64,000 nucleotides of DNA from Bryoerythrophyllum caledonicum (taxonomy: Eukaryota > Streptophyta > Bryopsida > Pottiales > Pottiaceae), in NCBI GenBank assembly GCA_963971425.1, contig OZ020525.1, positions 17,552,187 to 17,616,186 on the forward strand, written 5' to 3'. This document shows, in pieces, positions 16,557 to 53,229 of the stretch (position 1 is the stretch's first letter; each line of letters opens with the position of its first letter). The notes beneath the pieces were generated by a model. It ran no database searches. It was given only the letters and a program-made list of their open reading frames with translations, and had not been told where the DNA came from. The position numbers were made by a program, and so were the translations under genes.

Positions 16557-19500
16557 ATGGCAGGAGACGCCAAGCGCAATGGAGGTGGTCTGTTCGGAAT
16601 GGGCAAATGGTTCACGTCCATCAAACCGCTCGTCTTAGACGGCTCCACGACGCCTGCTGCGCCTCCCGGCCTCAGCCCTTCCTTCCGTTCTCCCAATCCT
16701 TCCTCCCACAATCCCTACGTTCAGAGCTACTCGATCGGCGGCTCTCCGCTCCTTTCTCCTCCAGATGGTGCAAACAATCCTTACTTCAGCCACTCCCCTC
16801 AAGGATCTCTCAGACCAGACCGACCATATCCTCCTCCACAACCTCAAAGCCCTTCACCCTATGGCCCAGGTGGGCATTCCTTTCATCAAGTTGCTGATCC
16901 TACAGCTCCCTACACCTCTGAGCAGCCTCCATATCCATCGAATCAAGAGTGCTCAGGTGCGTTATTTGCAAATTGATTTCAATAATATCAATAGAAGAGC
17001 TTGCTGGTCTATCCTTCATCCAGTCAATGGAAGAGTGTTGTAGGACTCTTCCAGCCATAATTCTTCAATTGATCATGGAAGAGTTTTGTGGTCTCTAAAC
17101 TCATGTCAAAGTAGCTTTGGGAGTGAAGAAGTAGTTTGCATGATAAGGTATTTTACTGAAACTTGGAGTGACTTTACAAATAACATCAGAACATCAATTA
17201 CGTTTTCGCTTTTACTGTCTAAAATTCCTTCTCCCTTTGCAGGTCGTATAACGGATGAGCTTGATGACGCGCCGTCGGAGCCCGGGAACAACGAGATCCA
17301 GGTATACAAAGCGCAGCTCCCATCGTCGCAGCAAACCTGCTTGCTGCACGGAACGCTCGAGGTCCGGATTTTCCAGGCGAAGAACCTGCCGAACATGGAC
17401 ATTTTCTCCGAGAAGGTGCTACAGGTCACGTCCAAGCTGAGGGAGGTGACCGGGATAGGCGCTCCAACGAAGATGACCAGCGACCCCTACACAACCGTGG
17501 TGCTTGGCACTGCGAGAGTCGCGCACACACGCGTGATCAGCAACAACGTCAACCCGGTCTGGAACGAGCACTTCCAGATCCCTGTGGCCCACTACGTGAA
17601 GGACATCGTTCTGGAAGTCAAGGACCAGGACGTCGTGGGCTCCCAGTTCATCGGGAAAGTGAGGTTCCAGGCGGCGATGGTGCTCAACGGCGGCGTGGTG
17701 GAGGGCTGGCACGACCTCGTGGGGAGCGCGTGCAAGCCGGGAGCGCAGCTGCAATTCTCCGCGCGCTACGTGCCAGTGGAGCAGAATCCTATCTACACTC
17801 AAGGCGTGGGAGCCGACGCCCACGGCGTCCCCCACACTTACTTTCCCCTCAGAATGGGATGCCGGTTGACGCTCTACCAGGACGCGCATATCTATGATAA
17901 CACGCTCCCTCCGATTCCGCTCGAGGGTGGCAGGACTTTCGTGCAAGCGCGGTGCTGGGAGGAGATGTGCTCTGCTATCAACGACGCCAAGGTGCTGGTG
18001 TACATCGCGGGGTGGTCGGTGTTCGATAAGATCACGCTGGTCCGGGACGTCAACCGGCCGGTGGTGGAAGGAGGAAGCTTGACGTTGGGAGAGCTCTTGA
18101 AGAAGAAAGCCAACCAGGGAGTTCGTGTGCTGATGCTCGTCTGGGACGACAAAACATCGCACGACATCCTGTTTGTGAAAACGGTGAGAAATTATCTAGT
18201 TTCAGTAAGATAACCCCTCTTTGGAATAATAATAATCACCTCTTCATAGTTCTCATCTCAACGGAGAGAGTCGGCTAGGACGCATGGTTGATCTCTTGCC
18301 AACTCCTTACACTTCGCCTTCAAAGACAGCTAAAACTACTCAAAGACTTGAAGCTCTTCTACTGATCTAGTAACTGTTCAAAGAAAAAAATCGTCAGAAG
18401 AAGGGGTATCTGATAGAAACTTCACGTGTTGGTTTTTCATGCACCTCCTCACCTTATGTGTCTGACTTGTAATATGCTCTGCGTAGGCTGGCGTTATGAA
18501 CACACATGACGAAGAAACGAAGAAGTTTTTCAAGCATACAGGAGTGAGGTGCGTCCTGGCTCCACGATACGGCGCAAACAAAACGACTTGGATCCGACAA
18601 AAGGTACGGCAGCTGGGTGAAGCTAAGTTGATTGGAGTATAATAATCTCCAAGACTGATTGACGGAATGGAATTCCAGGTAGTTGGAACACTGTACTCGC
18701 ATCATCAGAAGATCGCAATCGTGGACACTGGAGGACCGTCCGGACCGAGAAGATTGACCTCGTTTATCGGCGGCCTGGACCTGACTGGAGGCCGATGGGA
18801 CACCCCCTCCCACACTCTTTTTGCATCGTTACACAAAGAGCATAAAAATGACTTCCGCAACAAGTCATGGGAGGTGAGTGTATTCGTTTTCCATGACCAT
18901 TATTTTCTAGACAGTTTTTAGTGATTTTAGCAGAGTTTGATATGGCTTCTCTGGTTTTGTGACAGTATAAACCTGAGAGTGGTGGGCCTAGGGAGCCTTG
19001 GCACGACTGGCACTGCAGAATTGAAGGCCATGCTTCGTATGATGTTGTCAAGAATTTCGAGCAGCGGTGGAGGAAAGCTTCCAAAAGGTACGACGATGAG
19101 CTGGTTGATATCGACAGACGTGATGGATTGTTAGGCCCCTCCAACCAAGCTCCTCTTAGTGGGGACCGCTCTCTTTTCGTGAGTGATGAAAATGATCCGG
19201 AAACATGGCATGTGCAGGTACTTGAAGTACTCTCAATTTTGTTTCCTGCAGCTTCTTTTTTATTCTTTCTAATTGTGCTTATTTTGAGGTTTGAATGACC
19301 TTATTAACATAGAGAGAAGGTCGACTTTTGAATTTTGGCCACCTTTAATACTTATGTTATGAGGGCCTCTATTTTTTATGCAGGTTTTTAGATCCATTGA
19401 CTCAGGATCTGTGAAGGGCTTTCCAACCACCGTTGAAGAGGTTCAGAAAGAGGTCAGATACCGATCCTTACCCGGCCAACTGTCGTTGCTTTTCCTAGCT

Positions 19501-21152
19501 TAAAATTTGTGTCTTGTTCGTTCTTTTAGCTCAGAAAGGTGTTCGGACATGCGTTTCGGATTGTCCTCAATTATATTTGATCAATCTCCAACTTCGGATG
19601 GGATGATCTGCATCGCAATGATGGACTTTTATCAAACCGGTGTGGTTTTAATTGTGATGTTGTAGAACCTCGTGTGGGGGAAAAGTGTAGCTATAGACAT
19701 CAGCATTCAGATGGCGTACGTGAAGGCGATCCGTTCTGCTCAGCATTTTGTATATATTGAGAACCAGTATTTTTTGGGATCTTCGTACAATTGGCCGAAG
19801 TACAATAAAGCTGGTAATGACCCTCTCCTTTCCCGCACACATATGCCTAATTCCATCTGGCTAACGTCTGTCATGTACAAAACTGTCACGTTTTATTTGG
19901 ATATTCGAACACTGTAATCTGTCAATTAATGGACGCGGTCTGCAACAGGTGCTAATCACATCATTCCAATGGAGCTGACTCTGAAGATCTGCAGCAAGAT
20001 TCGAGAGGGCAAGAGGTTTGCGGTGTATGTGGTAATTCCGATGTGGCCAGAGGGTATCGCAGACAGTGCTCCGGTGCAAGAGATCCTGTATTTTCAGGTA
20101 ACGCTCAATCTTAACGCACAATTACCTTCCCCTTTCTTCTATCACATGATATCATGTCAATCCTTTTTTGTTCACCATTGTCTCTTGAGTGATATTGATG
20201 GTATGCACTTCCCTGTTGATTTGTAACACTTCTTCATGCGGCGTTGCTTCAGTCACAAACAATGCAGATGATGTATTCAAGAATTGCAGAAACGCTGCGA
20301 GAAACGGGTCAGATTGCGCATTCGAGGCCCACAGACTACTTGAACTTCTACTGCCTTGGGAACAGAGAGACGATAAAACATGGCGAACCTGCACCTCTCA
20401 ATCCCCCGGACAAGATCACCCCGCATGTAAGCGAGGGGTACTCTCAGCTAACATTGGCTTGAATAACTGACTGAGCTGTAGCTGATCAAAATTGCATGAA
20501 ATGCAGGGACGTTCACAAGCGAGCAGACGAATGATGATATATGTGCATGCCAAGGGCATGATTGTGGACGATGAGCTGGTGATCATGGGATCGGCCAACA
20601 TCAATCAGCGCTCAATGGATGGCTCCCGAGACACCGAGATTGCCATGGGTGGATATCAACCACAACACACTTGGGCTTGCAAAAAAGGACATCCTAGGGG
20701 CCAGGTGCCTGTCCACTTCCATGCCTAGTTGTTGTTTCATTGTCCTACCAATGGCAAATGCTTCTCAGTTTGAATCATCAGAACATGTCAGAAAGAACGT
20801 CTTGAGATTAATTGAATAGATCGTGATGGTCCTTACTGGGCATTTTTGGTTGCAGGTTTTTGGCTACCGGATGTCTCTGTGGGCGGAGCATCTGGCATGT
20901 TTGGAACCTGTGTTTGAGCAGCCTCAGAGCTTGGAGTGCGTGCAGAGGGTGAATGCCATGGCGGACAGGAACTGGGAGCTGTATGCAGCTCCGGAGGTAA
21001 CTGATATGGAGGGTCATCTCATCCGCTACCCTCTCAAGGTGGAAGATGACGGCACTTTGACGTACTTGCCAGGGTTTCAGACCTTTCCTGACGTGGGAGG
21101 GAAGATCAAGGGCTCCAATCAGCAAGGCATCCCAGACGACTTAACCGCCTAG
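16557..21152 (+). CDS. PLD: C2-type phospholipase D (beta/gamma-like), 979 aa
   Basis: Eleven exons join in frame: 16557-16956, 17243-18183, 18487-18603, 18679-18873, 18966-19217, 19384-19452, 19666-19813, 19949-20097, 20253-20426, 20507-20704 and 20856-21152. The enzyme hydrolyses membrane phospholipids to phosphatidic acid. Residues 1-133 are Pro/Ser/Tyr-rich, as in plant PLD-beta. A C2 domain (about 169-320) starts [18 protein letters not shown] and would bind calcium and membrane lipid. The two HKD motifs are complete: H495-K497-D502 in HHQKIAIVD and H829-K831-D836 in [21 protein letters not shown] between them is a basic patch like the PIP2-binding region. IENQYF and GSANINQRS are conserved family blocks. 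The C-terminus [10 protein letters not shown]...LTA is typical. All splice sites are intact, so the gene looks functional. The start at 16557 gives [11 protein letters not shown]. Its 3' half, from inside intron 5, is repeated twice more downstream. Confidence 0.95.
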
Positions 21153-21654
21153 GTTGCTACATGTTGTGAGGTCTTAAACATGCCTAAGAAGACACCCAGT
21201 GATAAAACTTGGATTCGTGGGAGAATCTATAGGAAATATGGTACATCGCCATCAATGTTCACATATTGAACAACTTGATCATGTCTATGCCTCAAAGAGT
21301 TATTGATGTTTATCAAACAAAAAGTGGCTATGCAGGGTAGTAGTCATTAAGAGTGTTTGGTGATTGTGCCTCCAAACTATGAACTTGCTTTTGTAGTGCA
21401 TGCTTTTTTTTCCTGAATAGTTAAAATTTGAATAATTTTGCATATAGAATTGTACACCCGTATCACATGTTTCACTTTTGGTTTATTCTTTGGTTAATCA
21501 TGTAGCACACTTCTATGAGGTGAAAGTTGCCAACTTTGTCCCACTTTATGCATTCTCAAATCATGATACCTCCTCTCCCAAATTTGATTATAGGTTGTGC
21601 ATCAACCAAAAGATGCCCTTCAGAACTTCCCCGATAATATTGCCAGTGCCAATT
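21153..21654 (+). other. PLD 3' flank
   Basis: This stretch begins after the PLD stop codon and probably contains the 3' UTR. It is repeated almost unchanged at 34500-35001 and, more diverged, at 52680-53229. No gene was seen. Confidence 0.6.
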
Positions 21655-23460
21655 TTAGCCAAATAAATGGGGTTTTCGATCATCCCAAGAAAATGACACA
21701 CAATCAACTCCCTTGATAATGACATCTTTTACAACCACCATTCTCTTCATAATAGTCAGCTTGTTCAGGTTATTTATACGTTTCCACACTGAATCTCTAT
21801 TATGTAAAGAAAAATCGATTACCACAATACATCGAGAATACTTACCAACATCAAATAAACGAAATACATACACTAGAACAAGTATATGTAGTACATCCTC
21901 AAGTTGCCATAAGTTAGCAACGTCAATGTCTCCTACTGTCAATGCCATAGAAGTGGTGTCTTGGAAAATATATAAGGCGTTGCTTATATCTATGTTGCCT
22001 TTTGCAATGACTTGATGGTTCTTGAAGATCCAACAATGGGCACTATCAAAGATGACAATGTGTCCGGAGTCTGCAATTGAACCAACAAATAGAAGATTTT
22101 TCTTTATACTCGGGAGGTAACAAACATTATCCAATTTTATTTCACATGTATTGGTGTGAATGGTGGAGGTGCCGGTTTCCTCAACAAAATAAGATTCACC
22201 TCCTTTTTCCACAACACGATTGTAGCTAGAAGAGCTGGGTGGATGATCAAGTTTGTCAATGTCTGACACTACGTGCACAGTTGCGTGGCCACTATCAACA
22301 TACCATGGGTTGTGATCCATCTGATAATAGGGATCATAGTAGTGGTAGCTTGGATCATAGTAGCTAGGATCATACTCATCAAGCATTTCTGCAGAATTGA
22401 CATATTCAGTACCTTGTTGGTTGTGTGGTGGCTGTCTGCAGTTGCGCATGATGTGTCCTAGTTTGCCGCAACCATAACAGATGGGTGACGGTGCACCTGT
22501 CTGTGTCGACTGGAACGCGAGTCCTTGCTGATATCTGCGTTCTCTTGGTTGCTATCCGTATGCTCCTGGTGCTGCTGAATGATACCCTCCTGTCCAGAAT
22601 GGTGGTCGGGGACCGAACGGCGCCCTCCCTCCAATCCATCTGCCGTGGTCTCGTCCCGGTTGTCCTCGCCCGTAGGAGGGGGCAAGTGCTTCGTCGTCTC
22701 CATGAGCTGATCTTGGCTAATTAGTCTTGTCTGCTCCGCCCTGAGTTTGGTGTAGAGCTCCTGAAGGTCAATGTCGACAAGTTCAGTATTGTGCTGTCAT
22801 ACGAGCCTGGCAATCCATTGAGTATGATTTGATTCAGGTGTGTGTCGTCCATTTTCTGGCCCATAATGATCAAACGGTTGCGTAATTCTCTGGCTTTCTT
22901 CACGTACTTGTCCACAAATCCGCCTTCTGTCATCTTGAGTGTTGCAATGAGGCCCATCAGGTTTAGCACTTGGGTCTTGTCACCTGCTGAATACTGTTCC
23001 TTCAACACTACCCACACTTTCGCTGGATATGTGAGATCTACAATGGTGTCAACAAGTCGTCAGCAACAGACATCGGAATTACTTTACAAGCTAGATCTTT
23101 CCTTCTCCGAAACTGCACTTTGATCAATCTTGGAAGCTTGCTGGATTTGTCTCCTCTTTGGTGATGGTCCACATCCCCTCGCCTCTGAGGATGATCTGCA
23201 TCTTGGGACTCCAAATGTAGTAGTTCTTGTCGCCTCGTAACTTGTCTTCTCTCTTTCTCGGCAAAAGTTTCTGCCATCCTTCTCTCTCGAAATACTAACT
23301 GCGGGACTTCTCTCAATTCCTCTCGATCTCCTGCAACTCTAGCTGCATCATAATCTCCTTGCTCTCTCCAGGTTTTACCTCACCCAGTTTCGGTGGCATT
23401 GCCGTCCATTCCCCTCTTTCTCAATACGTCAGTTCTAAAAACCCATGCGCTCTGATACCA
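21655..23460 (-). mobile_element. Old Copia element fragment A, unit 1 (broken)
   Basis: On the minus strand this holds remains of a Ty1/Copia gag-type region and the start of the pol region. Recognisable pieces include a gag stretch at 22721-23017 and a protease / pre-integrase stretch at 21655-22449. A primer-binding-site-like sequence (TGGTATCAGAGCGCATGG on the minus strand) ends at 23460, so LTR sequence should follow from 23461. The copy is broken in several places and lacks the rest of pol. It is a fossil, older than the unit duplication because unit 2 has the same fragment. Confidence 0.8.
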
Positions 23461-23850
23461 TGTTGAAACTAAGACTAAAAGAAAAACTCTAGAGTTGGGC
23501 AAGTGCGCTCACAGATCAAAGGACACGAAGGTGTCAATATACACATGAGCTGTCAAGGTTGACAGACATGACGAATGAGAACAAAGCAGGATGAATGAGT
23601 CTAGTGCAGATGAACTTCAACAAGGTTGACTGTCAACAAGGTCGAGAGCAGATGAATGTCAACAACAGTTTCAATCATTCTTCGAGTGATGCCTACTCCG
23701 ACTCATCTCTCTCTTCTGATTCTGTATGAATAGCTGAGTCGGAGGCGAGCGAGCATATGACTGACAAACGGAGATGGTTCACGGGTTTTAAGGAGCTCCC
23801 TCAGTTTTGCTGGTCTGTAACTACAGCAAAGCTGCAAATGATCATCAACT

Positions 23851-26770
23851 TTGAGTGAGAGGCACTGGTGATGTCATTGTTCACTCAACTGTGAATAGTG
23901 TTACCTCTTCCCTGCAATTCAAGAATGTGCTGTATGTTCTGGAGTTGCGGCGGAACCTGATCTCAGTGTCTCAACTTACTGCAAATAAGGTAGCCATAGT
24001 TCTTATCAGGGATGGCTGCAAACGTTATTCTGACCATGGCTATGGCGAGCTCATTATGACAGGAGCAAAGTGTGATAACCTTTGGCACCTTCACATCAGC
24101 CCTCAGTAGTGCTCAATATCTCACTGCTACAACATGGGATGATTCCAACCGACTGAGCAAGGAAACCATTCTTCTCCAACGATGGCATGAGAGGCTCGGG
24201 CATGTGCCTTTTGACACTATGCGTCGCATGGCTACTCAAGACATGGTTACTGGCATTGCTCCGTTATCGAAAGCAACTGCTCCAATGTGTCGTGGCTGTG
24301 CCTATGGCAAGAGCCAGTGTGTCCCTTTCCCGAAGCGCCATGGAGATCGTTAGTGTGCACGAAGATCTGCTGAAATTTTCCACACTGTTGTATCCGGACC
24401 AATGCAGATTGGATCCATTACTGGTTATCGGTTTTCTGTCACCTTCAAGGAAGGCTATCGCAGCTTCAGAATTGTTTACTTTCGATATCACAAGAATAAC
24501 GTCTTTGCATGCTTTCTCAAGCTTGTAAAGTATGCGACCAATACCACTGGTTGCAAGCTACGTCGACTTCGTAGCAACAATGGTACAGAATACCTATCGG
24601 GAGGTTTTCAAAAGTATTTGGAGGATGAAGGGATTCGCAATGATCTCACCTGAACAAAACCCTGTTGCTGAGAGAGACAACATGACGATTACACTATAAG
24701 AAAACTGGGTGTTTAGCAACGTTTTGGAAAATTCCTAAGCAATGCCTAGGGCCATGCTTTGTACATAAAACCACGCTAGAGCTGTTGCTTCTTTAAAAAG
24801 CAAGTCCCTTGGTGTTGCTTAGGAATTTTTCAAAACGTTGCTAAACAACCTGTTTTCTTGTAGAGTTATGGTGTGCCCTCGCAGCATGTTACATCACCGA
24901 TAGGTTCCTCTTCAATTCTGGGCTGAAGCGGTTAATACTGCTGTCTATGTTCTCAATCGAGTTGCCACCAAAGGAATTCATGGCCGGACACCTTGTCACC
25001 TGTGGTCACGTGATATCCCAGATGTCTCTCACTTTTGAGAGATTGGCTGTCCGGCATGTGCCCATGTTCCGAAGCAAACTAGAAGAAAGTTGGATCGCAA
25101 GGCTTATGAGTGCATGTTCATTGGCTACTTTGCTACAAGCAAAACATATCGCCACAGGAATCACGACAAAAGAAAACTGATCACTTGTCGTGATGTTCTA
25201 CCTTCTGAGCCTAGGACCTATGTTGCTCCCTTGAAATCTGATGCTGTAGATAGCTAGCAGCTTGAAATGGAAGAGGAGATCATTTCCCTTCATCAAAACA
25301 GTATCTGGATCGTAGCTAACCTCCCTCCAGGATCGGAACTGTGGCCAGTAAATGGGTTTTCAAGCTAACTTGATTGAAGGCAGATGGTACTGTGGACATA
25401 TTGTTCAAGGCACGTTTGGTTGACAAGGGTTACTCACAATCCTATGGTCTTGATTACAAAGAGACTTATGCTCCCACAGCCAAGGCTGATAGCATCCATT
25501 CTGTTCTTGCCATTGCTGCAACTGAGAAAATTTGTGACATGATACAGTTCGGCATAAAAACGGCGTTCCTTCATGGTGACCTCGATGAGAATATTTTTAT
25601 GGACTTATCAGAGGGTGTTGAAACTTGATCTTCCTAATAGCACTGGCAAGGTATGCCATCTTTAGAAATGCTTGTATGGTCTCACACAGGCCAATTGCTA
25701 GTGGAATACCTAGTTCACAATGTTTCTCAAAAAATACGATTTGGTACAATCCTCAGCTGATCCGTGCGTCTTCTATTCGACCACTCAGCCTCTCATGGCT
25801 ACATCGATCATTGAAGAGGATGGGCTCGGCATCTGTGTTAATGCTTCCCGGCTTCAGCACATGATCAAGTATCTGAAAGACCACTTTGCGATCACGGTTA
25901 GAGTTGCCAATGTATACATTGGATTATACATAACTCGTAACAGGTTCTCTCATACAATTTATGTGGACCAGATGCGCTTCATTGAGACCTTATTGGCTAA
26001 GTATGGCTACTCTGATGTAAATCCAATTTCCAAGCCTGCTGATCGAAATGAACGGCTTCAGAGACCACTTCCGCAAGATGAACCTGCAGCCTCGACATTT
26101 CCATATTAGAGCTGTGTCGGGAGTCTTCTTAATCTCCACTCGTGATCTTGTCCGGACGTCTCGTTGGCTGTTTCAATTGTATCACAGTACACAAGTTGCT
26201 ACCCGGCCATACATTGTTCGCATTCTCAAGTACCGTCGTGGGACGACAACGTATGCAATGTGTTATGGCAGGTCGAAGATTCCACGTCAACCCACTTTGT
26301 ACGTAGAGTCCAAAGGCTACGCTGGAGATGTGGAGATTGCTAGAGCCGTAGCGGTGTTGTCATTCTTCTGAGTGGTGCTCTGGTCATCTGGTTAAGTCGA
26401 AAACAGAGGTGCGTTGCGACATCCACCACAGAGGCAGAATAGATTGCTGCTTCGACGAGGAGCAAGGAAGTGAAATAGCTTCGACAGCTGATCTTGGTAT
26501 GTTATCTCCTGGACCTTCACCCGTGTTTTGTGATAATCAGGACGCAATGCATCTTGTTTGCAACCCTGAGTACCATAAATCTACTAAAAACACAGACATT
26601 TGTTACCATTGTATCTGAGAGCATCGAGACAAAGGAGTCATTGATGTGTCTTATGTCCCGACTGTTCAGCAAGTAGCTTATCTATTCACGAAACCATTAC
26701 CGGGCTGAAAACTTGTTACCTTTCGCAATGCACTTCATGTTGTACAACTCAATGTATTGTAAGTGGGAGA
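23851..26770 (+). mobile_element. Old Copia element fragment B, unit 1 (broken)
   Basis: On the plus strand this shows remains of Copia pre-integrase, integrase, reverse transcriptase and RNase H regions in the usual order, ending at a purine-rich tract near 26765. It lies head-to-head with fragment A and is a different element. It is broken many times. A CACTA-type MITE is inserted in it. The homologous fragment in unit 2 shows that it was in place before the duplication. Confidence 0.8.
24692..24865. mobile_element. CACTA-type MITE, 174 bp, with TTA target duplication
   Basis: The element begins CACTATAAGAAAAC and, on the other strand, its right end reads CTCTACAAGAAAAC. The arms stay inverted for about 50 bases (GTTTAGCAACGTTTT, ATTCCTAAGCAA on each side), so it folds back on itself. 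TTA flanks it at 24689-24691 and 24866-24868. Unit 2 has the empty site with a single TTA (GACGATTATGG near 38040). Ends and 3-bp duplication match plant CACTA (En/Spm) transposons. No coding capacity. Confidence 0.9.
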
Positions 26771-28040
26771 CTAAGTCTTATGGGTACGAGTACGAGTAGT
26801 ACAATCCACACTATGAGTGGGAGTATTGGTGGATATTAGGAGTATCGGTAGATGTTGGTAGATATAGCATAGTTGCAGATTGCCAGCTCTCTCTTGTGGT
26901 CGCAACATATTGCTGGGCACTCGTAGATCCAGCTTTGGTAGATTTTGTGTAGGTGTACAATTGAGTTCAGATGAGGATGTAGCATATGGGTACAGTCACA
27001 CATGTCGTGTCTCTCCTGTGAGGACGAGGACATAAGTGTTGTCGTGCACTTGCCTGTCACTTTGTCTGTTTGTGTGTTGTAGTGAATTATAGAGAGACTT
27101 GACCAGAGCTTCCGTGGGGTGGCGTCTATAAATTGATCGTACACATGAGCATGTGAGTGTGTAAGAGGGGAGTCTGGCACTTTTATAGTTCAATAGTTTA
27201 GCAAACTCACCGTAAACCGAAGCGTTGTCACCCAGAGGGCCATACTCGGCTAGAGAAGGACTCTTCCATGAAATTTCTCAAATGCTAACGGAGACCACTG
27301 TGATCTAGAGAAGGTCTAACCCTTTATTTTTTATCTAGTACACATCACTGGTCAATCAGTATTACCCCTTAGAGCACTCACTCAAAGGGCTAACACAACA
27401 TGCAGAAGACCAGGCTATTTCCACTCAAAGCGAGCCTCAATGTTCTAAACAGTGACGTCTAGAGCCAAATTGCTTACCATATACTCACACACAGACAGAG
27501 GGAGGGGACTCACCTTGGAATTCCAAATCTCTGTAACCACAAGCGAAGAAAACAGACAAAGCCGTCTAACCCTTCCTCTCTGTACGTGTGCCGCTAAGAC
27601 CTCGATTGAACCATGATATAACAACAAACCTGCAGAAATCAGCAAACAACAGCATCCAACAAGAAGCGTTATCACATTGAGAATAGTTCTCAGTTATCAG
27701 AGTAACGCTAACAAAATGACAGAGCATGCATCGTGGCGCAGTTGAGTGATCTACAAAGTGTAGAACAATTTACAGGAAATGAACCTGAAACGTATGAGAG
27801 CTCTAGAGTGGAGGTGCTGGCTCTGGAGAGGACGCAGCAACTTCCTCTCTTGAAGTGGACTCGTTCCAACACGACGTACAAGGCGCGATGTGCTTGAGCA
27901 CAGAACCGAAGGCGTTCTCGATCATTTATGCAGAGGTTTAATCGATCATGATGTTCAATGAGCCTTCTTGGCATGAATGACAGCTTCTTGTCATTGAAGT
28001 ACACCAGATGTTGCGACCGGAAACTTAAATTCTTGAGTGA
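26771..28040. other. Duplicated non-coding segment, first part (unit 1)
   Basis: The segment matches 40545-40862 and 46036-47010 in unit 2, where the young Copia element has split it. No reading frame looks like a protein and no splice pattern was convincing. The site matching the Copia insertion is near 27080 and is empty here. Confidence 0.5.
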
Positions 28041-28049
28041 AGGGTTTCA

Positions 28050-41334: not shown

Positions 41335-44300
41335 ATGGCGACGGTGATAAAACCAAGAGAGACACGAACCACCCCACTTTTCTTCGACCCACTTGAGGCA
41401 GACGGCTCGAATTACCTTAATTGGTACGTCGATATGAAGACCTACTTGAGCGCGGAGGAGCTGATCGTCACGCTGGAGGGAGAGCCCGAGGCGGAGATAC
41501 CAGCCACCTACAAGTGGCAGACGCTTCTCATCATCCGGCGACACATCGATGCGTCCCTGCGTCAACAATACATACAGGTTGAAGATCCGGCGGTACTCTG
41601 GTCAGCATTGGAAGCGCGCTTCAAGCATGAAGAAACGATTTTCCTCCCCCAAGCCCGCAGCGACTGGCTCAGTCTGCACGTACTGGATTTTCCGAATTTC
41701 ATCGCGTTCAACTCCGAACTACACCGCATCGTCGCGCAGCTTCGCCTCTGTGGCGACACGGTTACCGACGTCGACTTAATCGATAAGACCCTCTCAACTT
41801 TTCCCCCCGCATGTGCTATTCTAGCTCAGCAGTACCGTAACATGCGATTTACACAACATTCGGAGCTTATGTCATATTTGCTTTTAGTTGAAAAACAGCA
41901 GCAGATGCTCCTTAAAAACGCCGAGGCGCGACCTGCGAAGGAGGTTCACACAAGCGAAGTAAAGGAGAGCCGCAAGCAGCCCAACTCAACGACGCCGTCG
42001 AAGTCGACAAACCCCAGGCGAGAAACCCACAGCGCGGAGGCTCCCAGGCGACGATCCCGAGGCGATTGGCGCCCCCCACGTCGTGATCAACAGCAATCAG
42101 ACAAGAACCCGAGGTACACACATCGACCCGATAAGTCGACAAGTACATCAGGGAGTGGATCGCGAGGGTCATGTCACAAGTGTGGTCGTCCAGGGCACTT
42201 TCTTAAGGATTGTCGAGCGTCACAATATATCGTCGACATGTATAGAGAGTTAAAGTCCTTCAGGGAAGGAAAGAGAGAAACCCATACTCTCGATGCCCCC
42301 TCCCTTACGCTAAACGATGTCGACCCAGAAAACTATATGGTACAGTTTGGGTCACAACCTAGCAAAGCGAGAGTTGCTTTGTTAGACAGTGCGTCCACTC
42401 ACACCATTCTCCAAGACCCGGCGTTCTTTGAGTTCAAAACTAGGAACGAGCCGTGGCAAACTTGTGATATAATCACCATCGCAGGCAAGCGGACCTTTAA
42501 ATTCCGCGAGGGCCGGGCAAACATAGTCTTGCCCGGGGGAGCCCCCCTCACCTGCAAGAGGGCAATGTATGTCCCGGATGCCCCCCGGAGTCTGATCAGC
42601 TACCGGGATTTACGGGCCAATCAAATCCACGTTTCTACCGCGGTAGGAATTGATGATGAGGTCCTCGAGCTACGGCAAGGCGAGAGACTCCTTGCCACCG
42701 CATACGCGGGAGCCACCGGCCTATACGAGTTGCCCCTTGTTGGCGCTGTACCTAGCCCCGCTCGTAAGAGTGAGGAAGAGGATGGCGGACGTAGATCCCC
42801 ATGCCTACCCCTGAAAGGGGTGCCGATGTCCTTTTTGACAACCAGCACGAAGGCTGATGTTTGGCATCGCCGGCTGGGGCACCCTGGGACGACCATGATG
42901 AGAAAAATGGTCTTGACCTTAGTCGGTCACGACCTCTGCACACGGGACGCGGAGCGCGTAGAGGAGTGTGCGGCGTGTATACAAGGCAAGCTCATCCGCC
43001 AGCCGTCGCGATGGACGCTCCCGACAGAAATGCCCGCCCCGCTGCATCGGCTCCACGGTGACATATGTGGGCCGATCAACCCAAAATCAGGTCAGTTCCA
43101 GTACTTCTTTGTCTTGGTCGACGCATCGGGTAGACATGCTGAGGTTTCCCTGCTCACAACTCGTAACATGGTTTTTCCTAAAACCCTAGCTATGATTATC
43201 CGGTTTAGAACCCATTTTCCCGATAATCAGATTTGTTTTCTTAGGATGGACAACGCCTTAGAGTTCAAATCACAAGCTTTTGAGGATTTTTGCACCGCAA
43301 CTGGTATATCACTCACATATTCAGCCCCTTACGAGCACTCACAAAACGGACTAGCAGAAGCCTATATCAAAAAGATCCAACTGATCGTTAGGCCCCTCCT
43401 AATACACGCTAGCTTAGCACCTGAGTTCTGGGGTCACGCCGTCTTACACGCGGCCGTCCTGCTGCGCCTAAGACCCACACTATTACTCACACAGTCACCC
43501 CTCGAGATGGCGTCCGGTCGGACACCGAACGTAGCCCACCTCCGCACCTTTGGCTGCGAAGTGTGGATCCCAGCCCCCGAACCCCAACAGAAAACCATCA
43601 CCCCTCATAGAAATCGAGGGATTTACCTTGGTTATGATTCCCCCAGTGTTATTAGATATAAACTGATCAATAGAGATGATATTCACAAAGCTCGGTTCCA
43701 GAATTGTAAGTTCATAGAAACTAGATTCCCGAGTGCCCAAACCAAAACCAAACATAGCAATCTAAACTTTAGATCACCAGAAACCTTGACCCTGAATCCA
43801 GATCCTCGTACGGCGTTAACCGACTCAGAAGTTAGAAAGATTTTAAATCTCCAGAACCTCGCCGAGAAGATCCCAGATGGCTTCTACTCCGGTCCCCGGA
43901 TAGTTCGTAGCCCGGTCCCCGGATCAGGAAATCCCGCATCAGAACCCGTTAAGAAACGGAAACTAAACCATACACCCCGTTCCCGGGCACCTACAGTATT
44001 AAACACCGAACTAGAACAGCCCTGGGACGACGTAGAAATGTTTTTGTCAAGTCTTGCGACCCTGGACTCAGATCCCCTTACATTAAAACAGGCCCAAAAG
44101 AGTGACAAATGGCCCCAGTGGGAAAAAGCCATAGAAGCAGAATATAGTTCCCTTAGAAAACGAGGAGTTTTCGGACCACTAGTGACCAATCTGCTAGATA
44201 AACCAATTGGACACAAGCTAATATTTACACGCAAACGAAACGACCTAGGGGAAGTCATCAGATTTAAAGTAAGATTAGTCGCCCAGGGTTTCACCCAAAA

Positions 44301-45681
44301 ACCCGGCATAGACTTCGAACAAACTTACTCCCCCGTTATGGATAGTACATCCTTCCGCTACCTTCTAAGCTTAGCCGTCCAGCTTTCTTTAGAAACCCGC
44401 TTGCTCGACGTGGTGACAGCATACTTATACGGCGACCTAGACGCCGAAATCCATATCCAGCCCCCTCCCGGATTTCTCCCCGATCAGACCAAGCCTATCC
44501 CTGGAAAATATTCTGGTCTCAAGATCAGAAAGGCACTTTATGGCTTGAAACAAGCCGGCCGAGCTTGGTATCACCATCTCAAAACCTACCTACTGTCGCA
44601 GGGATTTACAAATGACCCCGCACTTCCGTGCATATTTGTCCTCAGAGACACGACGGGTTTTGTAATTCTTGCAGTTTATGTGGATGATTTAAATTCAATA
44701 GGCACCGTAGCGCTTAGCGCACGAGTTGAAAAGTTACTCACAGACAAATTTGAGATGAAAGTGCTAGGCCGTACTTCATTTTGTCTTGGCCTGCAAATTC
44801 AACACTATCCAGATGGAAGCATCCTTCTACATCAGCAGACCTACGTGAAGAAGCTTTTGCTGCTCTTCAACATGGCCGACGCCAACGCGCTGTCCGCCCC
44901 AATGATCGGGAAAAGTCGCACCGACGAGGACCCTTATCGGCCAGCAGAAGAGGAGGAAGAGGAAGTGGATCGGCCCAAGTATTTAGCAGTTGTTGGAGCG
45001 CTACTCTATTTGGCGACCAACACCAGACCCGATATCTCCTTCGCCGTCAGCGTGCTTGCTCGCCACAATCAAAAGCCAACCGATAGACACTGGCGAGGAG
45101 TTAAGCATCTCCTACGGTATCTGCGAGGGACGACAGACCTCGGCCTCCACTTCCACAAAACCAAGTCCAGCGCCATCACCGGCTATGCCGACGCCGGATT
45201 CAAGACGGATCCAGCCACGGGCAAATCTCAGACAGGCTACGTATTCATCAAGAACGGAGCGCCGATATCCTGGCGATCAACCAAACAGACGATCACGGCC
45301 ACATCAACCAACCACGCAGAGTTAGTCGCATTTCACGAAGCATCCTGCGAAGCGGTTTGGATCCGCACAATGCACTACACCATCTTCAAGATGAGCGGTA
45401 TTTCACACCAGGAGGAGCCGATCACTTTATTTGAAGACAATGCAGCTTGTATTGAACAGGTTTCTTCTGGATTTATTAAGGCCGACCGTGTCAAGCATAT
45501 CAGCCCTCATCTATTCAGTTACACACAAGATCTAATCGAAACACGGCAAATTCAAGCAAAGAAGATTGCTTCAGCAGAAAATATTGCGGACGTACTTACG
45601 AAGGCTCTACCCGCACATCAACACCGCAAGCTGATCAAAGCAGCTGGCATGCGGACCCTCACGGAGTTAGCAAGCGAATAA
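41335..45681 (+). CDS. Copia Gag-Pol polyprotein, 1448 aa, looks whole
   Basis: A single frame carries the parts in Copia order: Gag (about residues 1-270), a CCHC zinc knuckle (CHKCGRPGHFLKDC, about 281), an aspartic protease (LLDSAST), a pre-integrase / integrase region (WHRRLGH, then the catalytic core), reverse transcriptase (YVDDL near 1120) and RNase H at the C-terminus. Integrase before reverse transcriptase identifies Ty1/Copia rather than Gypsy. The frame is open from end to end. No envelope-like frame follows. Confidence 0.95.
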   Translation: MATVIKPRETRTTPLFFDPLEADGSNYLNWYVDMKTYLSAEELIVTLEGEPEAEIPATYKWQTLLIIRRHIDASLRQQYIQVEDPAVLWSALEARFKHEETIFLPQARSDWLSLHVLDFPNFIAFNSELHRIVAQLRLCGDTVTDVDLIDKTLSTFPPACAILAQQYRNMRFTQHSELMSYLLLVEKQQQMLLKNAEARPAKEVHTSEVKESRKQPNSTTPSKSTNPRRETHSAEAPRRRSRGDWRPPRRDQQQSDKNPRYTHRPDKSTSTSGSGSRGSCHKCGRPGHFLKDCRASQYIVDMYRELKSFREGKRETHTLDAPSLTLNDVDPENYMVQFGSQPSKARVALLDSASTHTILQDPAFFEFKTRNEPWQTCDIITIAGKRTFKFREGRANIVLPGGAPLTCKRAMYVPDAPRSLISYRDLRANQIHVSTAVGIDDEVLELRQGERLLATAYAGATGLYELPLVGAVPSPARKSEEEDGGRRSPCLPLKGVPMSFLTTSTKADVWHRRLGHPGTTMMRKMVLTLVGHDLCTRDAERVEECAACIQGKLIRQPSRWTLPTEMPAPLHRLHGDICGPINPKSGQFQYFFVLVDASGRHAEVSLLTTRNMVFPKTLAMIIRFRTHFPDNQICFLRMDNALEFKSQAFEDFCTATGISLTYSAPYEHSQNGLAEAYIKKIQLIVRPLLIHASLAPEFWGHAVLHAAVLLRLRPTLLLTQSPLEMASGRTPNVAHLRTFGCEVWIPAPEPQQKTITPHRNRGIYLGYDSPSVIRYKLINRDDIHKARFQNCKFIETRFPSAQTKTKHSNLNFRSPETLTLNPDPRTALTDSEVRKILNLQNLAEKIPDGFYSGPRIVRSPVPGSGNPASEPVKKRKLNHTPRSRAPTVLNTELEQPWDDVEMFLSSLATLDSDPLTLKQAQKSDKWPQWEKAIEAEYSSLRKRGVFGPLVTNLLDKPIGHKLIFTRKRNDLGEVIRFKVRLVAQGFTQKPGIDFEQTYSPVMDSTSFRYLLSLAVQLSLETRLLDVVTAYLYGDLDAEIHIQPPPGFLPDQTKPIPGKYSGLKIRKALYGLKQAGRAWYHHLKTYLLSQGFTNDPALPCIFVLRDTTGFVILAVYVDDLNSIGTVALSARVEKLLTDKFEMKVLGRTSFCLGLQIQHYPDGSILLHQQTYVKKLLLLFNMADANALSAPMIGKSRTDEDPYRPAEEEEEEVDRPKYLAVVGALLYLATNTRPDISFAVSVLARHNQKPTDRHWRGVKHLLRYLRGTTDLGLHFHKTKSSAITGYADAGFKTDPATGKSQTGYVFIKNGAPISWRSTKQTITATSTNHAELVAFHEASCEAVWIRTMHYTIFKMSGISHQEEPITLFEDNAACIEQVSSGFIKADRVKHISPHLFSYTQDLIETRQIQAKKIASAENIADVLTKALPAHQHRKLIKAAGMRTLTELASE

Positions 45682-45749
45682 AGATTTTACTCTTTTTCTG
45701 CATTTTTACCGCAGTTTTTTAACGAGAAAATCATTTATTCGAGGAGGAG

Positions 45750-46030
45750 TGTTGAGATAGCCTAAAATAGCCTAGCTACTCTTACTTAAACTCCCGGGTC
45801 CACTGTAGTTAGGCGGTATTTATGAGAACTACCTACCTAATTAGGGTAGGTAAGTAAACTTACCTACCTAATTATGGCAGTCTTGATTACATCGCCCACT
45901 ACTGAATTAGGTGGCTGATTGGCTATTAATGCCACCTAACCACCTCTTAAGTATATAAGAGCTGACCTCACCCGGTCAGAGCTCTCTTTCATGTGGACAT
46001 GGTGGTGTTGTATATTGTCCTCTCCTAACA
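45750..46030 (+). repeat. Right LTR of the young Copia element
   Basis: 281 bp, same length and sequence by eye as the left LTR, followed by the GCAGT target duplication. Confidence 0.95.
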
Positions 46031-46035
46031 GCAGT

Positions 46036-47020
46036 GATCTGTATAGAGACGAGACCAGAGCTTCCGTGGGGTGGCGTCTATAAGTTGATGGTACACATGA
46101 GCATGTGAGTGTGTAAGAGGGGAGTCTGGCACTTTTATAGTTCAATAGTTTAGCAAACTCACCGTAAACCGAAGCGTTGTCACCCAGAGGGACATACTCG
46201 GCTAGAGAAGGACTCTGCCAAGAATCTCCTCAAATGCTAACGGAGACCACTGTGATCTAGAGAAGGTCTAACCCTTTATTTTCTCTCTAATACACATCCC
46301 TGGTCAATCAGTATTACCCCTCAGAGCACTCACTCAAAGGGCTAACACAACATGCAGAAGACCAGGATATTTCCACTCAAAGCTAGCCTCACTGTTCTAA
46401 ACAGAGACGTATAGAGCCAAATTGGTTACCATATACTCACACACAGACAGAGGGAGGGGACTCACCTTCGAACCCCAAATCTCTGTAACCGCAAGCGGAG
46501 AAGACAGACAAAGAAGACAGACAAAGACGTCTAACCCTTCCTCTCTGTACGTGTGCCGCTAAGACCTCGATTGAACCATGATAAAACAACAAACCTACAG
46601 AAATCAGCAAACAGCAGCATCCAACAAGAAGCGTTATCACATTGAGACTAGTTCTCCGCACTCTCTACGAGCAGAGTAACGCTAACAAAATGACAGAGCA
46701 TGCATCGTAGCGCAGTTGAGTGATCTACAAAGTGTAGAACAATTTACAGGAAATGAACCTGAAACGTATGAGAGCTCTAGAGTGGAGGCGCTGGCTCTGG
46801 AGAGGACGCAGCAACTTCCTCTCTTGAAGTGGACTCGTTCCAACACGACGTACAAGGCGCGATGTGCTTGAGCACAGAACCGAAGGCGTTCTCGAACATT
46901 TAAGCAGAGGCTTAGTCGATCATGATGTTTAATGAGCCTTCTTGGCATGAATGACAGCTTCTTGTCATTGAAGTACACCAGATGTTGCGACAGGAAACTT
47001 GAATTCTTGAGTGCAGGGTT
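46036..47020. other. Duplicated non-coding segment, first part (unit 2)
   Basis: This continues unit 2 after the Copia insertion and is collinear with 27090-28040. No gene was seen. Confidence 0.5.
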
Positions 47021-47039
47021 TCAAATCCAAGATCGGGGA

Positions 47040-47648
47040 CGTTCGTCAAGAGATTTTGCCCACCGGAGGGCTGGGAAGCTGCCGGAGGGCACCACAGCAA
47101 TCCTGAAACTGTACGTGCACCTGAAACTTCACAGGAACCCACGCCAAGTGGCCTTTCCCAACTATACGTGCACCTGATACTTCTTGTGCATACATCCAAG
47201 CACGCGGTCTTTTTGAATTTGATAATTCTTGGTGGTTCACAAAAATACATGAACCAGGTCAGCAAGCATGATACTAGATTGGATGGCCAGTTACTAGAAC
47301 AAGTAGATATACCGGTTCAAATTACTACATAGATCGCGCGATTTACTATAGCATTTGCAAATTGAATAACGTTTTGGAGCTGCATGGGCCACCATATATG
47401 ATTATCCTGTTAGACTGCTATCTGATGAGAGGTGGGCTTCCATGATGAATAACAACGTATACCATGTCTTGGAACACTTACAATATGGCAATCAGGAGGA
47501 GAAGGAGATCTCGGTTCAGCGGACAGGGTTGGAGATGACGCAAGTGAACAACTGGTTTATCAACCGACGTAAGCGAAAATGGCATAGCAATCCCATAATT
47601 CCTACCGGGCAAGCGGTCGATCTGAAGGGCAAAGTGCGAAAGAGGTGA
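47040..47648 (+). pseudogene. KNOX homeobox relic, unit 2 (two pieces)
   Basis: Piece one (about 47064-47145) reads RRAGKLPEGTTAILK, like the ELK/homeodomain junction of class II KNOX proteins. Piece two (47496-47648), after an acceptor-like ATCAG, reads [20 protein letters not shown] then WHSNP, which is the third helix of a TALE homeodomain (usual text QINNWFINQRKRNWHSN). The invariant W-F-N-R pattern is kept. The stretch between the pieces and the text after RNP have drifted. The MEINOX domain is absent. This is a broken host-gene fragment, and unit 1 lacks piece two. Confidence 0.7.
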
Positions 47649-50175
47649 GATAAGTAGACACTTGCATGGATCTTCATACTAGTGTCTTCAGGGTATCTAA
47701 ACCTCCTCACTAATACTGCGATACCAACGACCTTCACTAGTTTAAAATAAGAATATATCGTCTTCGATTAATTAGATTACTCATGGCTGTTCATATCCTT
47801 CTGCCAAGAGTTTGAAAATCGCATTTAGTTACAGTCTAGCTAATATGAAGTATTTCTCTTCATAACTTATCTGGTTTCATGAACATAATAGAATCTTGTG
47901 AAACTGGAAATCTTGTGAATGCACTTTCCACCATTTTCAATTTTTCATGCAGATGAATGATTATGTTACTGGGAGATCAAAAGAGTTTAACCTTTGTCTG
48001 TGTCTGCTTTTGTACGCAGTTTGTGAATACTCACATCTCACGAACATGCCACCACCAAAGTACGTGAGGACGCATGAGCTCAGAAAACTCGAGAAGCCTG
48101 TAAATCTCTAATCTGAGCTAAAATTAGCAAAAATGTACTTTCTATGGTTTCGACTCCCAAGGTGGCCTCTACCCTTGTCTTTGAAAATAGATGGGAAACA
48201 AATCCCTCATTGGAATGTTTGAACGCTCGCACATGTACGATGAACAACGAACACTCATTAAACTTTCACTGGGTAGTGGTGACTCCTCAAAAAGTAATCA
48301 TATAGATAATGCTTACAGTATTTTCACTTAAGTTACTCCTGTTATCTAGATTGAGATGTATCATGTTTACTTATCTTTAAAATTCACCCAGTATCTTATA
48401 TATATAACTGTGATTACGTAAACCATGAATCTAATCAAGACTGGACTCATGGTGAGGATTCAACTGAGGATGAGATCTAAAGGCGAGTGATGACAACGTG
48501 TGTGGCAAGTTGAAGCCCTGGCCAATACGCTTCTGAACGAGTAATGATGCCCACGGCATGGAAAAAAATCGAGCAGGAAGAGGTAAGGCTCATGTCCCAT
48601 CGCTCACAGCTGGTGTAACTTGCCCTTTGGCACAACCTATGGTACCGGGACCAGGTCAGGGGCCTTCATTTTCTGATTGTGACTCCCGGCCTACCTCTGG
48701 GCTCTGGTCATTGCAGCGCTGTCCTGCTCTTAAATGTGCCACCACGTCATGCCAAGTTCTTTGATCTTATGGCCTCCAAGCCTTGGTGTGAACGTTAATT
48801 ATTACTTGGCTTTTCACCACATTCATCGGTGGAATGTCCAACGTTCCTAGATGATCTGCGGAATGTCTAGGTGCCTGGGTTTGCACATGTTCTGAGTTTT
48901 TCTTCTTATCCAAGTCTGGAAATGGCGAAGAGAAAAGGCTGGTTGAGTGGGTGGGGAGTTGCTTCGACGCTTCATTCCTGCAGTCAAGTGGAATATTACC
49001 TCGTACATTGGTCCGGTGTGTGATTTCAGTCTGGTGGAATGTAAGAATTGCATGAGCTTGGAGGTTGTGGAATGGTAGATAAGTTTATTTGGAATGCTAG
49101 TACTCATTTTTTATTTTTCATATCCAAGGAAGGAAGAGCTTCGTGGTTTCTAGAATCAAGTGTGAAGTATTTTGACTCGCTATGTAAATGAAAGAGAGGT
49201 CATGAATTTTGGCCACCTTTTGCCTATACATGCCGATCATAGATATTTAGAGTTATTTTCAGCTCATTAATGTATAATGAGAAAAGCGGTCAAAACCTAT
49301 GATTCCATTGCCTCACTTGACAAATAATGCTATGGCAAACAGTGATGTGTAATAACCATGATTTACACTGACCAAAGTTTACGAATGCCACTAAAGTTAT
49401 CAAGATATTCAAGATGACTAGATTCATGACATTTGCGATTTTGGTGGAAAACAGGTCTGTCTAGACAGCAACAACAGGACTACCTCCAAGCCTCCACGTT
49501 GAGGGTAGCTCAGAAGCTGGTGAATTATTGAAGAAGTGGTCCACAAAGTTAACCCATGGATGTGACCACTGTAAAACACCACTCATAATGAAGCTGCACA
49601 CACAAGTACACCATTCAAACACCATTACAAAGTATACCCAAGTACTACCTGTTAACAGTCATGATTATTAGCTAAACTCCCGCTCAAACCAAACCTAGGG
49701 TTGTGGAAACTCACCCCAGATTAAGGAAAAATTAACCTGCACTCGACCAAAGTCAGTGAAAAACGGTACCAGGATCAGTGAAAGATTATCAAGGTTGGTA
49801 TCAATGATTACATGGATTATACTTGGTGGTGAAGGACATTGAATCTCGGTCGTATTCTAAAGCTTGTGGAGTGGAGTGGAGTGAAAGCCTTGTCACAGTT
49901 GCATCTTGAGTGGGGAATCGATACATTAAACTAGATTAGGACTCATTAGTAAGAAGTTATTAACTCGTAACCAAGGTTAGTGAAAGCGGGTGGAGGGCAT
50001 TGATGATGGCCTTTGTTGGGGTCAAAAGGGGGGGCTTGTGGAGCAAGAGCAGCTCTTTCCTCTCGCTCAAGGGGACCTTCTTCCTCCCTCTCTCTCGCTT
50101 ACTCTCTCCACATGAGGTCGTTTGTCTGCATGTTGGTTCCCAATCTCCCACCTTGTTAGTATGTGCACACTTGCT
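47649..50175. other. Duplicated non-coding segment, middle part (unit 2)
   Basis: From 47953 this is collinear with 28523-30837 of unit 1. The 457 bases from about 47496 to 47952 have no partner in unit 1. No coding exon was seen after the homeodomain piece. Confidence 0.5.
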
Positions 50176-50231
50176 GTTCGAGTGGTGATGTTCGAGTGGT
50201 GATGTTCGAGTGGTGCTGTTCGAGTGGTGGG
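50176..50231 (+). repeat. 15-bp minisatellite, four copies (unit 2)
   Basis: GTTCGAGTGGTG(A/C)T is repeated four times; unit 1 has two copies at the same place. Confidence 0.8.
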
Positions 50232-50360
50232 AGACAACTTGTGGCCGTAGTTGAAGTGCCGAGGCTCCCTTCGACGTAAGATACAGAACTATTACTTGTT
50301 TCTAGCATGTTCTGATGCTATGATGCTAGAGAAAGGCTGGCTGTTCTTATTCTGTCTGGA

Positions 50361-50980
50361 GAGGATGGTTCATAAACTGTGTAGAACCCTTACCTGAGTT
50401 TGGGCTCCGATTAGGATGATAATCAGTGTCGTGGAGGTTGTTTCTCTTGTGTAATGGTGGTGAGTAACATCCTTTTCCTGTGTGGCTTGATGTTGTGGTT
50501 GATTTAATACTGATATGGTGGTGAGTTCTCTTATCTGATCGATTTGTGGATGCTAGATCTGTTTGATTAGAGATAGATCTTAACTTTGTTATATCCTTCT
50601 CAAGATCGATGCTTTCAAGTTATAGATTGTGTAGAAAATATGCTTGTGATGCGGAATAGGTATCCTTCAGATCAAATCAAGAGAGCAATCATGCGTAAGA
50701 TGTCGATCTTAGATTGCATCAATAAAGCTGGCTTTCGTCATACCCTTCATGATATTAACGAGCTCTAAGTTCGCATATACTATTCAGAAGTTTGTAGCAA
50801 AGTTCATGATCTTCGAGAGCCTGCATGCTAGTTTGTCTCAGTTTCTGTGATCTAAGAGATAACTATTCTTTAACTGACATGGTTCCTTGTGGTTACAGCG
50901 CTCTACCCAGAGCAACGGTATGCTGCTGTCTTCTACCTACCTTCTAGAAATCCGGCAGGACAATGTAAATGGTGAGTGCA
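50361..50980 (+). other. Near-identical patch with exon-like signals (unit 2)
   Basis: This is the partner of 31000-31620. The 60-residue frame at 50586-50768 is identical to the unit 1 frame. The exon-like block near 50899-50971 is kept between GGTTACAG and GTGAGT. The protein is not recognised. Confidence 0.35.
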
Positions 50981-51169
50981 GTCGGAATCCAATTTATTTT
51001 ATTGTTTCCATTATTTTATAGAATATATGCCGGTGAAGCAGCAGTTTCTATAGATTGACATTGTGAGTGACCATGTCTAACATTTCGAAATTTCTTGTAG
51101 AGTATAATTAAGGTGCTTATAAAATGTGTACCTTGAGAACTCTGTTTAGTTTCTTTAACCACGTTTAGC

Positions 51170-51935
51170 TAAAGAAGTGGTTGTAATGGTGATGCAGATA
51201 TATATGAGAACCAGTCTCCAGATGATGTGTAGGAAATTGCACACAAGTTATATTTCAAGTTCAACACTTTCCCCAGATCCTTTGTGAGGTGCTCTGAGAA
51301 TGGGAAATGCTCAACCCGCCACCCTTCATGAATCATGTCCTCAAGGCAGGCAAGGACGAGATACAGGTCTATTAAGTGGCCAGGATTGGTGAAACACGCT
51401 CGACCCATCTCTTTGCCACCCGCACTATCTCGACACGTGCTGCGGCTTGGGCCACTATCAAAAGATGTCTACGTCGTGACCTGCACCGAGGATCTCTCCC
51501 CAAAAGTGTGGAGGCTTGAACGGTCTCATGGGTGGCATGAGCTCAATCTCCTCCCACGGCACATGAGATCGAGCGAGCTTTCACACTGTTCGGGAGAGAT
51601 TGTTCGTGCCGGTGACGGCATAGACCTCGTTCTTTGAGTGGCCGAGGCCCCAAGTGTCGACCGCGTGATGCAGGTGGCGGAGAGGCGGGTCTAGCGTGCT
51701 CCACCAATCCCTGATCACTGAGTAGACCTGGATCTCGTCCATGTCTACCTAGATGTACACCTTGTCGTCCCAAGAGATGCATAACTTACAAGTGTAAGTG
51801 ACCGGTTTGGATCATGTGGGACGGGTGAGTCTCCCACGCCCTGGTTTGGAGTCAAAGATCAGGGTGCTCGAGTTTGGCGTCCCCACCATGAGCTTGACGG
51901 CGTGCGGCTTTGTGGACGTGTCCACCATCCTTCCT
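51170..51935 (-). pseudogene. Kelch/F-box-like relic, unit 2
   Basis: On the minus strand from about 51930 one can follow KPHAVKLMVGTPNSSTLIFD, ISWDDKVYI, MDEIQVYSVIRDWWSTLDPP, DTWGLGHSKNEVYAVTGTNN and WEEIELMPPMRPF. The repeated pattern of a beta-strand, VY and a W about twelve residues later resembles kelch repeats of plant F-box proteins. Several stops interrupt the frame (for example directly after VYI), so it is a decayed host-gene fragment. The plus-strand reading (VWRLERSHGWHELNLL) is open but shows no repeat pattern. It ends just before PLD text restarts. Confidence 0.5.
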
Positions 51936-53229
51936 TGAAGTGTTCTTATTTTTGTTTTCTGCAGCTTTATTTTTATGTTTTCTAATCGTGCATATTTGAA
52001 CGTCTGAATGACCTTTTTAACACAGAGAGAATGTCGACTTTTGAATTTTGGCCACCTTTAATGCTTATGTTATGAGGGCCCCTGTTTTGTATGCAGGTTT
52101 TCAGATCCATTGACTCAGGATCTGTGAAGGGCTTTCCAACCACCGTTGAAGAGGTTCACAAAGAGGTCAGATACCGATCCTTACCCGGCCAACTGTCGTT
52201 GCTATTCTAGCTTTAAGTTTGCGTGTTGTTCGTCCTTTTAGCTGCTTCTTGTCCAGGTAGGTGTTTGGACATGCGTTTCGGATTGTCCTCAATTATATTT
52301 GATCATCGACAGAACATGTCAGAAAGAACGTCTTGAGATTGAATAGATCGTGATGGTCCTTACTGGGCATTTTTGGTTGCAGGTTTTTGGCTACCGGATG
52401 TCTCTGTGGGCGGAGCATCTGGCATGTTTGGAACCTGTGTTTGAGCAGCCTCAGAGCTTGGAGTGCGTGCAGAGGGTGAATGCCATGGCGGACAGGAACT
52501 GGGAGCTGTATGCAGCTCCGGAGGTAACTGATATGGAGGGTCATCTCATCCGCTACCCTCTCAAGGTGGAAGGTGACGGCACTTTGACGTACTTGCCAGG
52601 GTTTCAGACCTTTCCTGACGTGGGAGGGAAGATCAAGGGCTCCAATCAGCAAGGCATCCAAGACGACTTAACCGCCTAGGCTGCTACATGTTCTGAGGAT
52701 TTAAACATGTCTAAGAAGACACCCACTAATAAAAACTTGGATTCGTGGGAGAATCTATAGGAAATATGGTACATCGTCATCAATGTTCATATAATGAACA
52801 AGTTGATCATGTCTATGCCTCAAAGAGTTATTGATATTTATCAAACAAAAAGTGGCTATGCAGGGTAGTAGTCATTAAGAGTGCTTGGTGATTGTGCCTC
52901 CAAACTATGAAATTGATTTTGTAGCGCATGGTTTTATTTCCAAAACAGATAAATGAATAATTTTGCATACAAAATTGCACACCCGTATCACATGTTTCAC
53001 TTTTGGTTTATTCTTTGGTTGATCATGTAGCACACTTCTATGAGGTGAAAGTTGCCAACTTTGTCCCACCTTATGCATTCTCAAATCATGATACCTCCTC
53101 TCCCAAATTTGATTATAGGTTGCACATCAACCAAATGACGCCCTTTAGGACTTCCCCGATTACATTGCAGCTTGTTACCTATTGTAGCCAAAAAAAATCG
53201 GTTTCGGCTCATTTAAAGAAAATGACATA
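51934..53229 (+). repeat. Large tandem duplication, unit 3 (partial)
   Basis: The third copy starts at the same intron 5 text (CTTGAAGTG), runs through PLD exons 6 and 11 and the PLD 3' flank, and stops matching at about 53229, close to where Copia fragment A begins in units 1 and 2. Confidence 0.85.
52097..52679 (+). pseudogene. PLD: Partial PLD copy, exons 6 and 11 only (unit 3)
   Basis: Exon 6 (52097-52165) and exon 11 (52383-52679) are preserved with their splice sites. An internal deletion joins intron 6 to intron 10 at about 52304 (TTTGATCA to CAGAACATGTCAG), removing exons 7-10 with the second HKD motif. Exon 11 differs from the complete gene by a few codons (Asp to Gly, Pro to Gln). 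It cannot encode an active enzyme. Confidence 0.9.

Follow-up and report, generated by a model that had tools for sequence, protein, structure and literature searches.

A partial tandem array of the 3' half of a moss PLD gene, probably old and patched by copying between its repeats

A C2-PLD gene of the moss Bryoerythrophyllum caledonicum is followed, in the same orientation, by headless partial copies of itself, in an array of three graded repeat units that all start inside intron 5. We read this locus, with a probability of about 0.7, as an old partial tandem duplication that was patched by copying between its repeats, the second copy probably being a pseudogene fragment. The window analysed, 64,000 nt of contig OZ020525.1, has the character of plant DNA. 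The gene and the repeat units are as follows.

16557-21152, + strand: full-length C2-PLD parent gene, 11 exons, 979 aa
16557-16956, 17243-18183, 18487-18603, 18679-18873, 18966-19217, + strand: parent exons 1-5
19384-19452, 19666-19813, 19949-20097, 20253-20426, 20507-20704, 20856-21152, + strand: parent exons 6-11
19221-32568, + strand: unit A, 13,348 bp, from PLD intron 5 (position +4) to the 3' end of the gene plus 11.4 kb downstream
32569-51933, + strand: unit B, 19,365 bp, the whole unit a second time, lacking PLD exons 1-5
32732-34499, + strand: PLD exons 6-11 in B (32732-32800, 33017-33164, 33300-33448, 33604-33777, 33858-34055, 34203-34499)
51934-53229, + strand: unit C, a partial third copy, with only PLD exon 6 (52097-52165) and exon 11 (52383-52679)

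We reconstructed the parent gene manually, guided by splice sites and reading frame; its introns are GT-AG throughout, and its exons form a single open frame. Pfam matched C2, PLDc and PLD_C, with the N-terminal C2 domain at residues 170-292 (3.8e-19) and PLD_C (PF12357) at 2.6e-28. The translation and its alignment to 6kz8 reveal both HxKxxxxD motifs, HHQKIAIVD in exon 4 and HAKGMIVDD in exon 10, and the closest solved structure is that same entry, Arabidopsis PLD alpha 1 (AtPLDalpha1; E 4e-230, residues 167-978). A proline-rich N-terminal extension, taken together with the 11 exons, suggests a PLD of the beta/gamma/delta type. Such plant C2-PLDs share with our gene the C2 domain, the two HKD motifs and a high exon number (11 here); in a survey of moss PLDs, clade II, of this type, averages 9.6 exons (PMC9607936). 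The parent is the sole copy in the array capable of encoding a whole PLD. Upstream in the window lie pieces of other genes, a class 3 lipase domain (3742-4308) and a major-sperm-protein (VAP-like) domain (about 8960-9040), and at 12728-14456 a 178-bp tandem pair with an inverted copy about 1.2 kb off, possibly a terminal-repeat element.

Exon 5 ends at 19217 and is followed by GTA, and the repeat begins at 19221, which is intron 5 position +4. In self-BLAST, 19221-24691 matches 32569-38045 at 96.4%, with collinear blocks onward to the unit end, while 19221-19583 and 20769-21698 match 51934-53229. A sequence-only reading of the window had proposed a tandem duplication of the PLD 3' half, with three units starting at one point four bases past the exon 5 / intron 5 junction; the self-BLAST units and a shared novel junction support the duplication, and the common start is exact to the base (19221, 32569 and 51934). 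The A/B offset given there, about 13,347 bp, holds within 4 bp (13,348 for exon 6, 13,351 for exons 7-10 and 13,347 for exon 11). The unit contains PLD exons 6-11, which encode the second HKD and the C-terminal domain, and 11.4 kb of downstream DNA holding decayed copia pieces, a homeobox exon fragment and a palindrome. As had also been proposed, the extra copies are without the C2 domain and the first HKD, neither B nor C having exons 1-5; for the B product, Pfam gives only PLDc (HKD2) and PLD_C. The repeats are thus partial tandem duplicates in the usual sense, each covering part of one parent gene and adjoining it in the same orientation, across a novel junction.

In C, a deletion joins intron 6 to intron 10, removing exons 7-10, and the right end is the equivalent of A 21698. 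Unequal exchange had been offered as the explanation of this partial unit. Homologous exchange does account for the starting junction that C shares, but is insufficient alone: exons 7-10 must also have been deleted internally, and a separate, non-homologous event must have truncated the unit at 53229. B is 19.4 kb long because a young copia element (5,168 bp) and other indels lie inside it; among the latter are segments of 574 bp and 457 bp that A is without. The junctions and the elements within the units are listed here.

32565-32572, no strand: novel junction 1, where the unit end meets intron 5 (+4), ATCCTTC/CTTGAAG
51930-51937, no strand: novel junction 2, the same join as junction 1, flanks diverged
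40863-46030, + strand: young Ty1/copia element in B only, 5,168 bp, 281-bp LTRs 100% identical, TG..CA ends
24692-24868, no strand: short foldback element confined to A, CACTATAAGAAAA ends, duplicated TTA; B has the empty site near 38042
47493-47949, + strand: 457-bp segment in B, absent from A, with the terminal exon of a fragmentary KNOX-type homeobox gene
31979-32388, no strand: imperfect palindrome of about 410 bp near the right end of unit A; B carries its copy at 51341-51753

B and C are each preceded by the non-PLD sequence ATCCTTC, with which the unit before them ends. The left flanks of the two junctions (ends of A and B) are 16% different in the last 98 bp and 8-10% in the preceding 500 bp, and the right flanks (starts of B and C) are 10% different in intron 5; the overall divergence of the duplicated-junction flanks is put at 7-16%. 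A non-parental junction that is present twice with diverged flanks would therefore have been made once and copied long ago. This bears directly on whether the array is an assembly artefact. The window contains one scaffold gap, of 200 Ns at 60216-60415, and so comes from a scaffolded assembly, which speaks for an artefact; however, the gap sits 7 kb outside the array, there are no Ns in or near it, and misassembly would not make the same join twice in diverged sequence. The copies have moreover diverged, and carry different deletions and different insertions, the latter with clean target-site duplications. We consider an artefact scarcely credible.

Junction microhomology was not found on the visible side; the other side is lost, since C ends before the unit end. 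Nor were terminal repeats or a target-site duplication found at the unit ends, and we rejected transposition of the unit as cargo: its ends are unmarked and it sits in its natural place behind exons 1-5. Six-frame Pfam scans of 49001-52300 and 46036-49821, run to see whether the unit end had captured a gene, returned only the homeobox fragment. As far as can be seen, the start of the unit 3 bp past the exon edge is chance.

A and B have had separate histories, as the A-only foldback element and the B-only copia element, with their clean target-site duplications, attest. The copia element is flanked by a 5-bp duplication (GCAGT) and has a 1461-aa gag-pol frame; its insertion is recent relative to the array. 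The foldback element has CACTATAAGAAAA ends, as is typical of CACTA-type elements. The 457-bp segment of B is an orphan homeobox fragment (Pfam Homeobox_KN, 1.6e-7) with CAG at both ends, and therefore its absence from A is probably a microhomology deletion. The palindrome, folded as RNA, is predicted to form one long hairpin in both units (-223 and -248 kcal/mol, z about -10 and -14), and resembles a gene fragment duplicated in inverted orientation, as in hairpins of the proto-miRNA or siRNA type. We looked for its maintenance as an RNA hairpin and rejected this: 13 of the 21 pairs changed between A and B are broken, which gives no sign of constraint. Rfam and tRNA scans of the window yielded no matches. 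A degenerate 7-bp repeat (CCTAGAC/CCCTATA) at 54535-54675, 1.3 kb beyond unit C, resembles an eroded interstitial telomere repeat.

A and B diverge in a patchy manner, by 0 to 16%. At 4.2% overall, the interior is too similar if the array is as old as the junction flanks indicate. The differences are clustered (dispersion index 3.3; maximum of 2000 permutations 1.42), the longest identical run is 615 bp (at most 302 in 2000 permutations), and the clustering persists with coding sequence left out. That longest run, 30985-31600 of A with the matching stretch of B, is non-coding; it may be a recent conversion tract or a conserved element, for instance a 5' intron. Along the sequence common to all three copies the closest pair shifts, giving a mosaic: B and C are closest at 19491-19544 (8 states shared against A) and at several sites in 21201-21335, and A and B at 21337-21597, where they are identical and C differs about 15 times (for the 207 sites in 21381-21590, A/B 0 differences, A/C 14). 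Compared with shuffled site orders, the 3' part shows a shortage of runs (P 0.009); the 5' part gives no signal (P 0.30). The patchiness therefore indicates that the repeats exchanged sequence by gene conversion or unequal exchange, and gene conversion or repeated unequal exchange between units would be the ordinary explanation of the mosaic.

Exons 6-11 of B comprise 345 codons, stop codon included; no internal stop or frameshift interrupts them, and every splice site is kept. Six synonymous changes and one replacement separate them from those of A. B thus shows neither the disabling mutations nor the neutral dN/dS of a pseudogene, and in a freely decaying pseudogene such intact exons would be unlikely. 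The dN/dS of its PLD exons is about 0.05, where most of the unit's other open frames have values of about 0.2-2, and none of the 46 indels between A and B falls in coding sequence where 4 would be expected (P 0.019). C differs from A by three replacements and no synonymous change; truncated, with exons 7-10 deleted and with only replacements, it has the marks of a pseudogene and is presumably non-functional.

Introns 5-10 are 5.6% different between A and B, and a tract of low divergence covers 19545-21190, with differences at 17 of 676 non-coding sites and 4 of 966 exon sites (Fisher P 0.0002), all four exon differences being synonymous. With B neutral and A constrained, 7-10 replacements are expected in exons 7-11 and none is seen (conditional binomial P about 0.0006, on the assumption that the tract differences accumulated after conversion). 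B's single replacement, an F to S change in exon 6 (VFRSID), lies just outside the tract, at a residue conserved in AtPLDalpha1. Sites specific to B include this TCC codon and synonymous positions in exons 7, 8 and 10.

The intact exons and splice sites, the low dN/dS, the missing replacements and the indel-free coding sequence all speak for B as a working partial gene. It might supply an alternative 3' half, parent exon 5 being spliced to B exon 6, or encode its own headless protein; an in-frame ATG-CAG just before exon 6, present in both A and B, makes a 346-residue product conceivable, which would carry HKD2 and the PLD C-terminal domain and would be expressed from a captured upstream promoter. 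There is a precedent in barley HvARM1, a conserved 3' partial duplicate (PMC6092874). Set against this, the promoter, 5' exon and transcript are hypothetical elements, a product without the first HKD is no complete PLD alone, the sole replacement strikes a conserved residue, and the low-divergence tract spans introns, as conversion predicts. We judge a working B unlikely. The more specific proposal, that B is a functional 3'-half PLD gene, acting as an alternative end of the parent or as an HKD2-only modulator of the full enzyme, its frame kept by selection and not conversion, strikes us as distinctly unlikely.

Alternatively, the array may join two diverged haplotypes, alleles having been set side by side by unequal crossing over between homologues or by a haplotype-mixed assembly, such that the A/B differences arose while both belonged to full genes. 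This would account for the purifying-type differences in the B exons and for the presence or absence of transposons in A and B; yet the twofold junction with its 7-16% diverged flanks means an old array, not a fresh fusion, C shows neutral-looking replacements, and the divergence is strongly patchy. As an account of the whole array we find it quite improbable, although haplotype mixing could have contributed to the tract over exons 7-11.

In our view the intact B is best explained by recent conversion, with a functional PLD allele as donor, and we prefer this to B being used, because exon 6, outside the tract, has the F to S change at a conserved residue, because the tract takes in introns, and because C, in the same upstream context, decays normally. 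The lack of replacements in exons 7-11 means that conversion needs an extra assumption, a different functional donor allele, or else points to function.

The history that we propose begins with a partial tandem duplication of the ancestral PLD locus. Its left break would have fallen in intron 5, at 3 bp from the end of exon 5, and its right break some 11.4 kb beyond the gene, so that the intact gene came to be followed by a second, headless set of exons 6-11. Later, the units would have undergone a homologous unequal exchange that copied the junction and made the third unit, which then may have shed exons 7-10 and its right part through illegitimate deletions. Subsequently the repeats would have diverged by mutation and transposon activity, while stretches including B exons 7-11 were, we suppose, repeatedly overwritten by gene conversion or unequal exchange. 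The donors were most likely functional PLD alleles, which would make B look intact though it is probably a pseudogene fragment; if the donor already differed from the assembly's allele, the A/B differences in the tract would be allelic.

The locus is a fresh example of an already known kind of event, and mostly an ordinary one. In several animal data sets, 21-63% of the young duplicates are partial (PMC3449122). Like the eukaryotic partial (incomplete, internal) duplicates reviewed there, the present copies are DNA-mediated, cover only part of the parent, break inside the gene and lie beside it, and gene conversion curbs divergence of the shared part; unlike them, a second unequal exchange and later deletions would here have led to three graded copies, and a recruited 5' exon would be hypothetical. 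HvARM1, a functional, conserved 3' partial duplicate of HvPUB15 in Triticeae, resembles B in being headless, in keeping a coding 3' half and in its low replacement rate; however, it lies about 95 Mb from its parent on the map, is conserved across species and has had its function tested, whereas B is in tandem and any function of it would be putative (PMC6092874). Tandem duplicates are over-represented among plant pseudogenes, and concerted evolution is reported for proximal copies (PMC7935947); B shares with these the tandem placement and the preserved flanking homology, but carries no disabling mutation. The moss survey reports tandem PLD duplicates and PLDs without HKD2, and its text, when searched, makes no mention of truncated or pseudogene copies without the 5' half (PMC9607936); paper searches found no matching PLD case.

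The array is a clear case of how conversion in a partial tandem duplication can make a headless copy resemble a functional gene. Automatic annotation would likely call B a short PLD gene, and, with A and B homogenised, dates drawn from their sequence identity would be misleading. Should B turn out to be in use, the locus would offer a natural division of PLD into its two halves.
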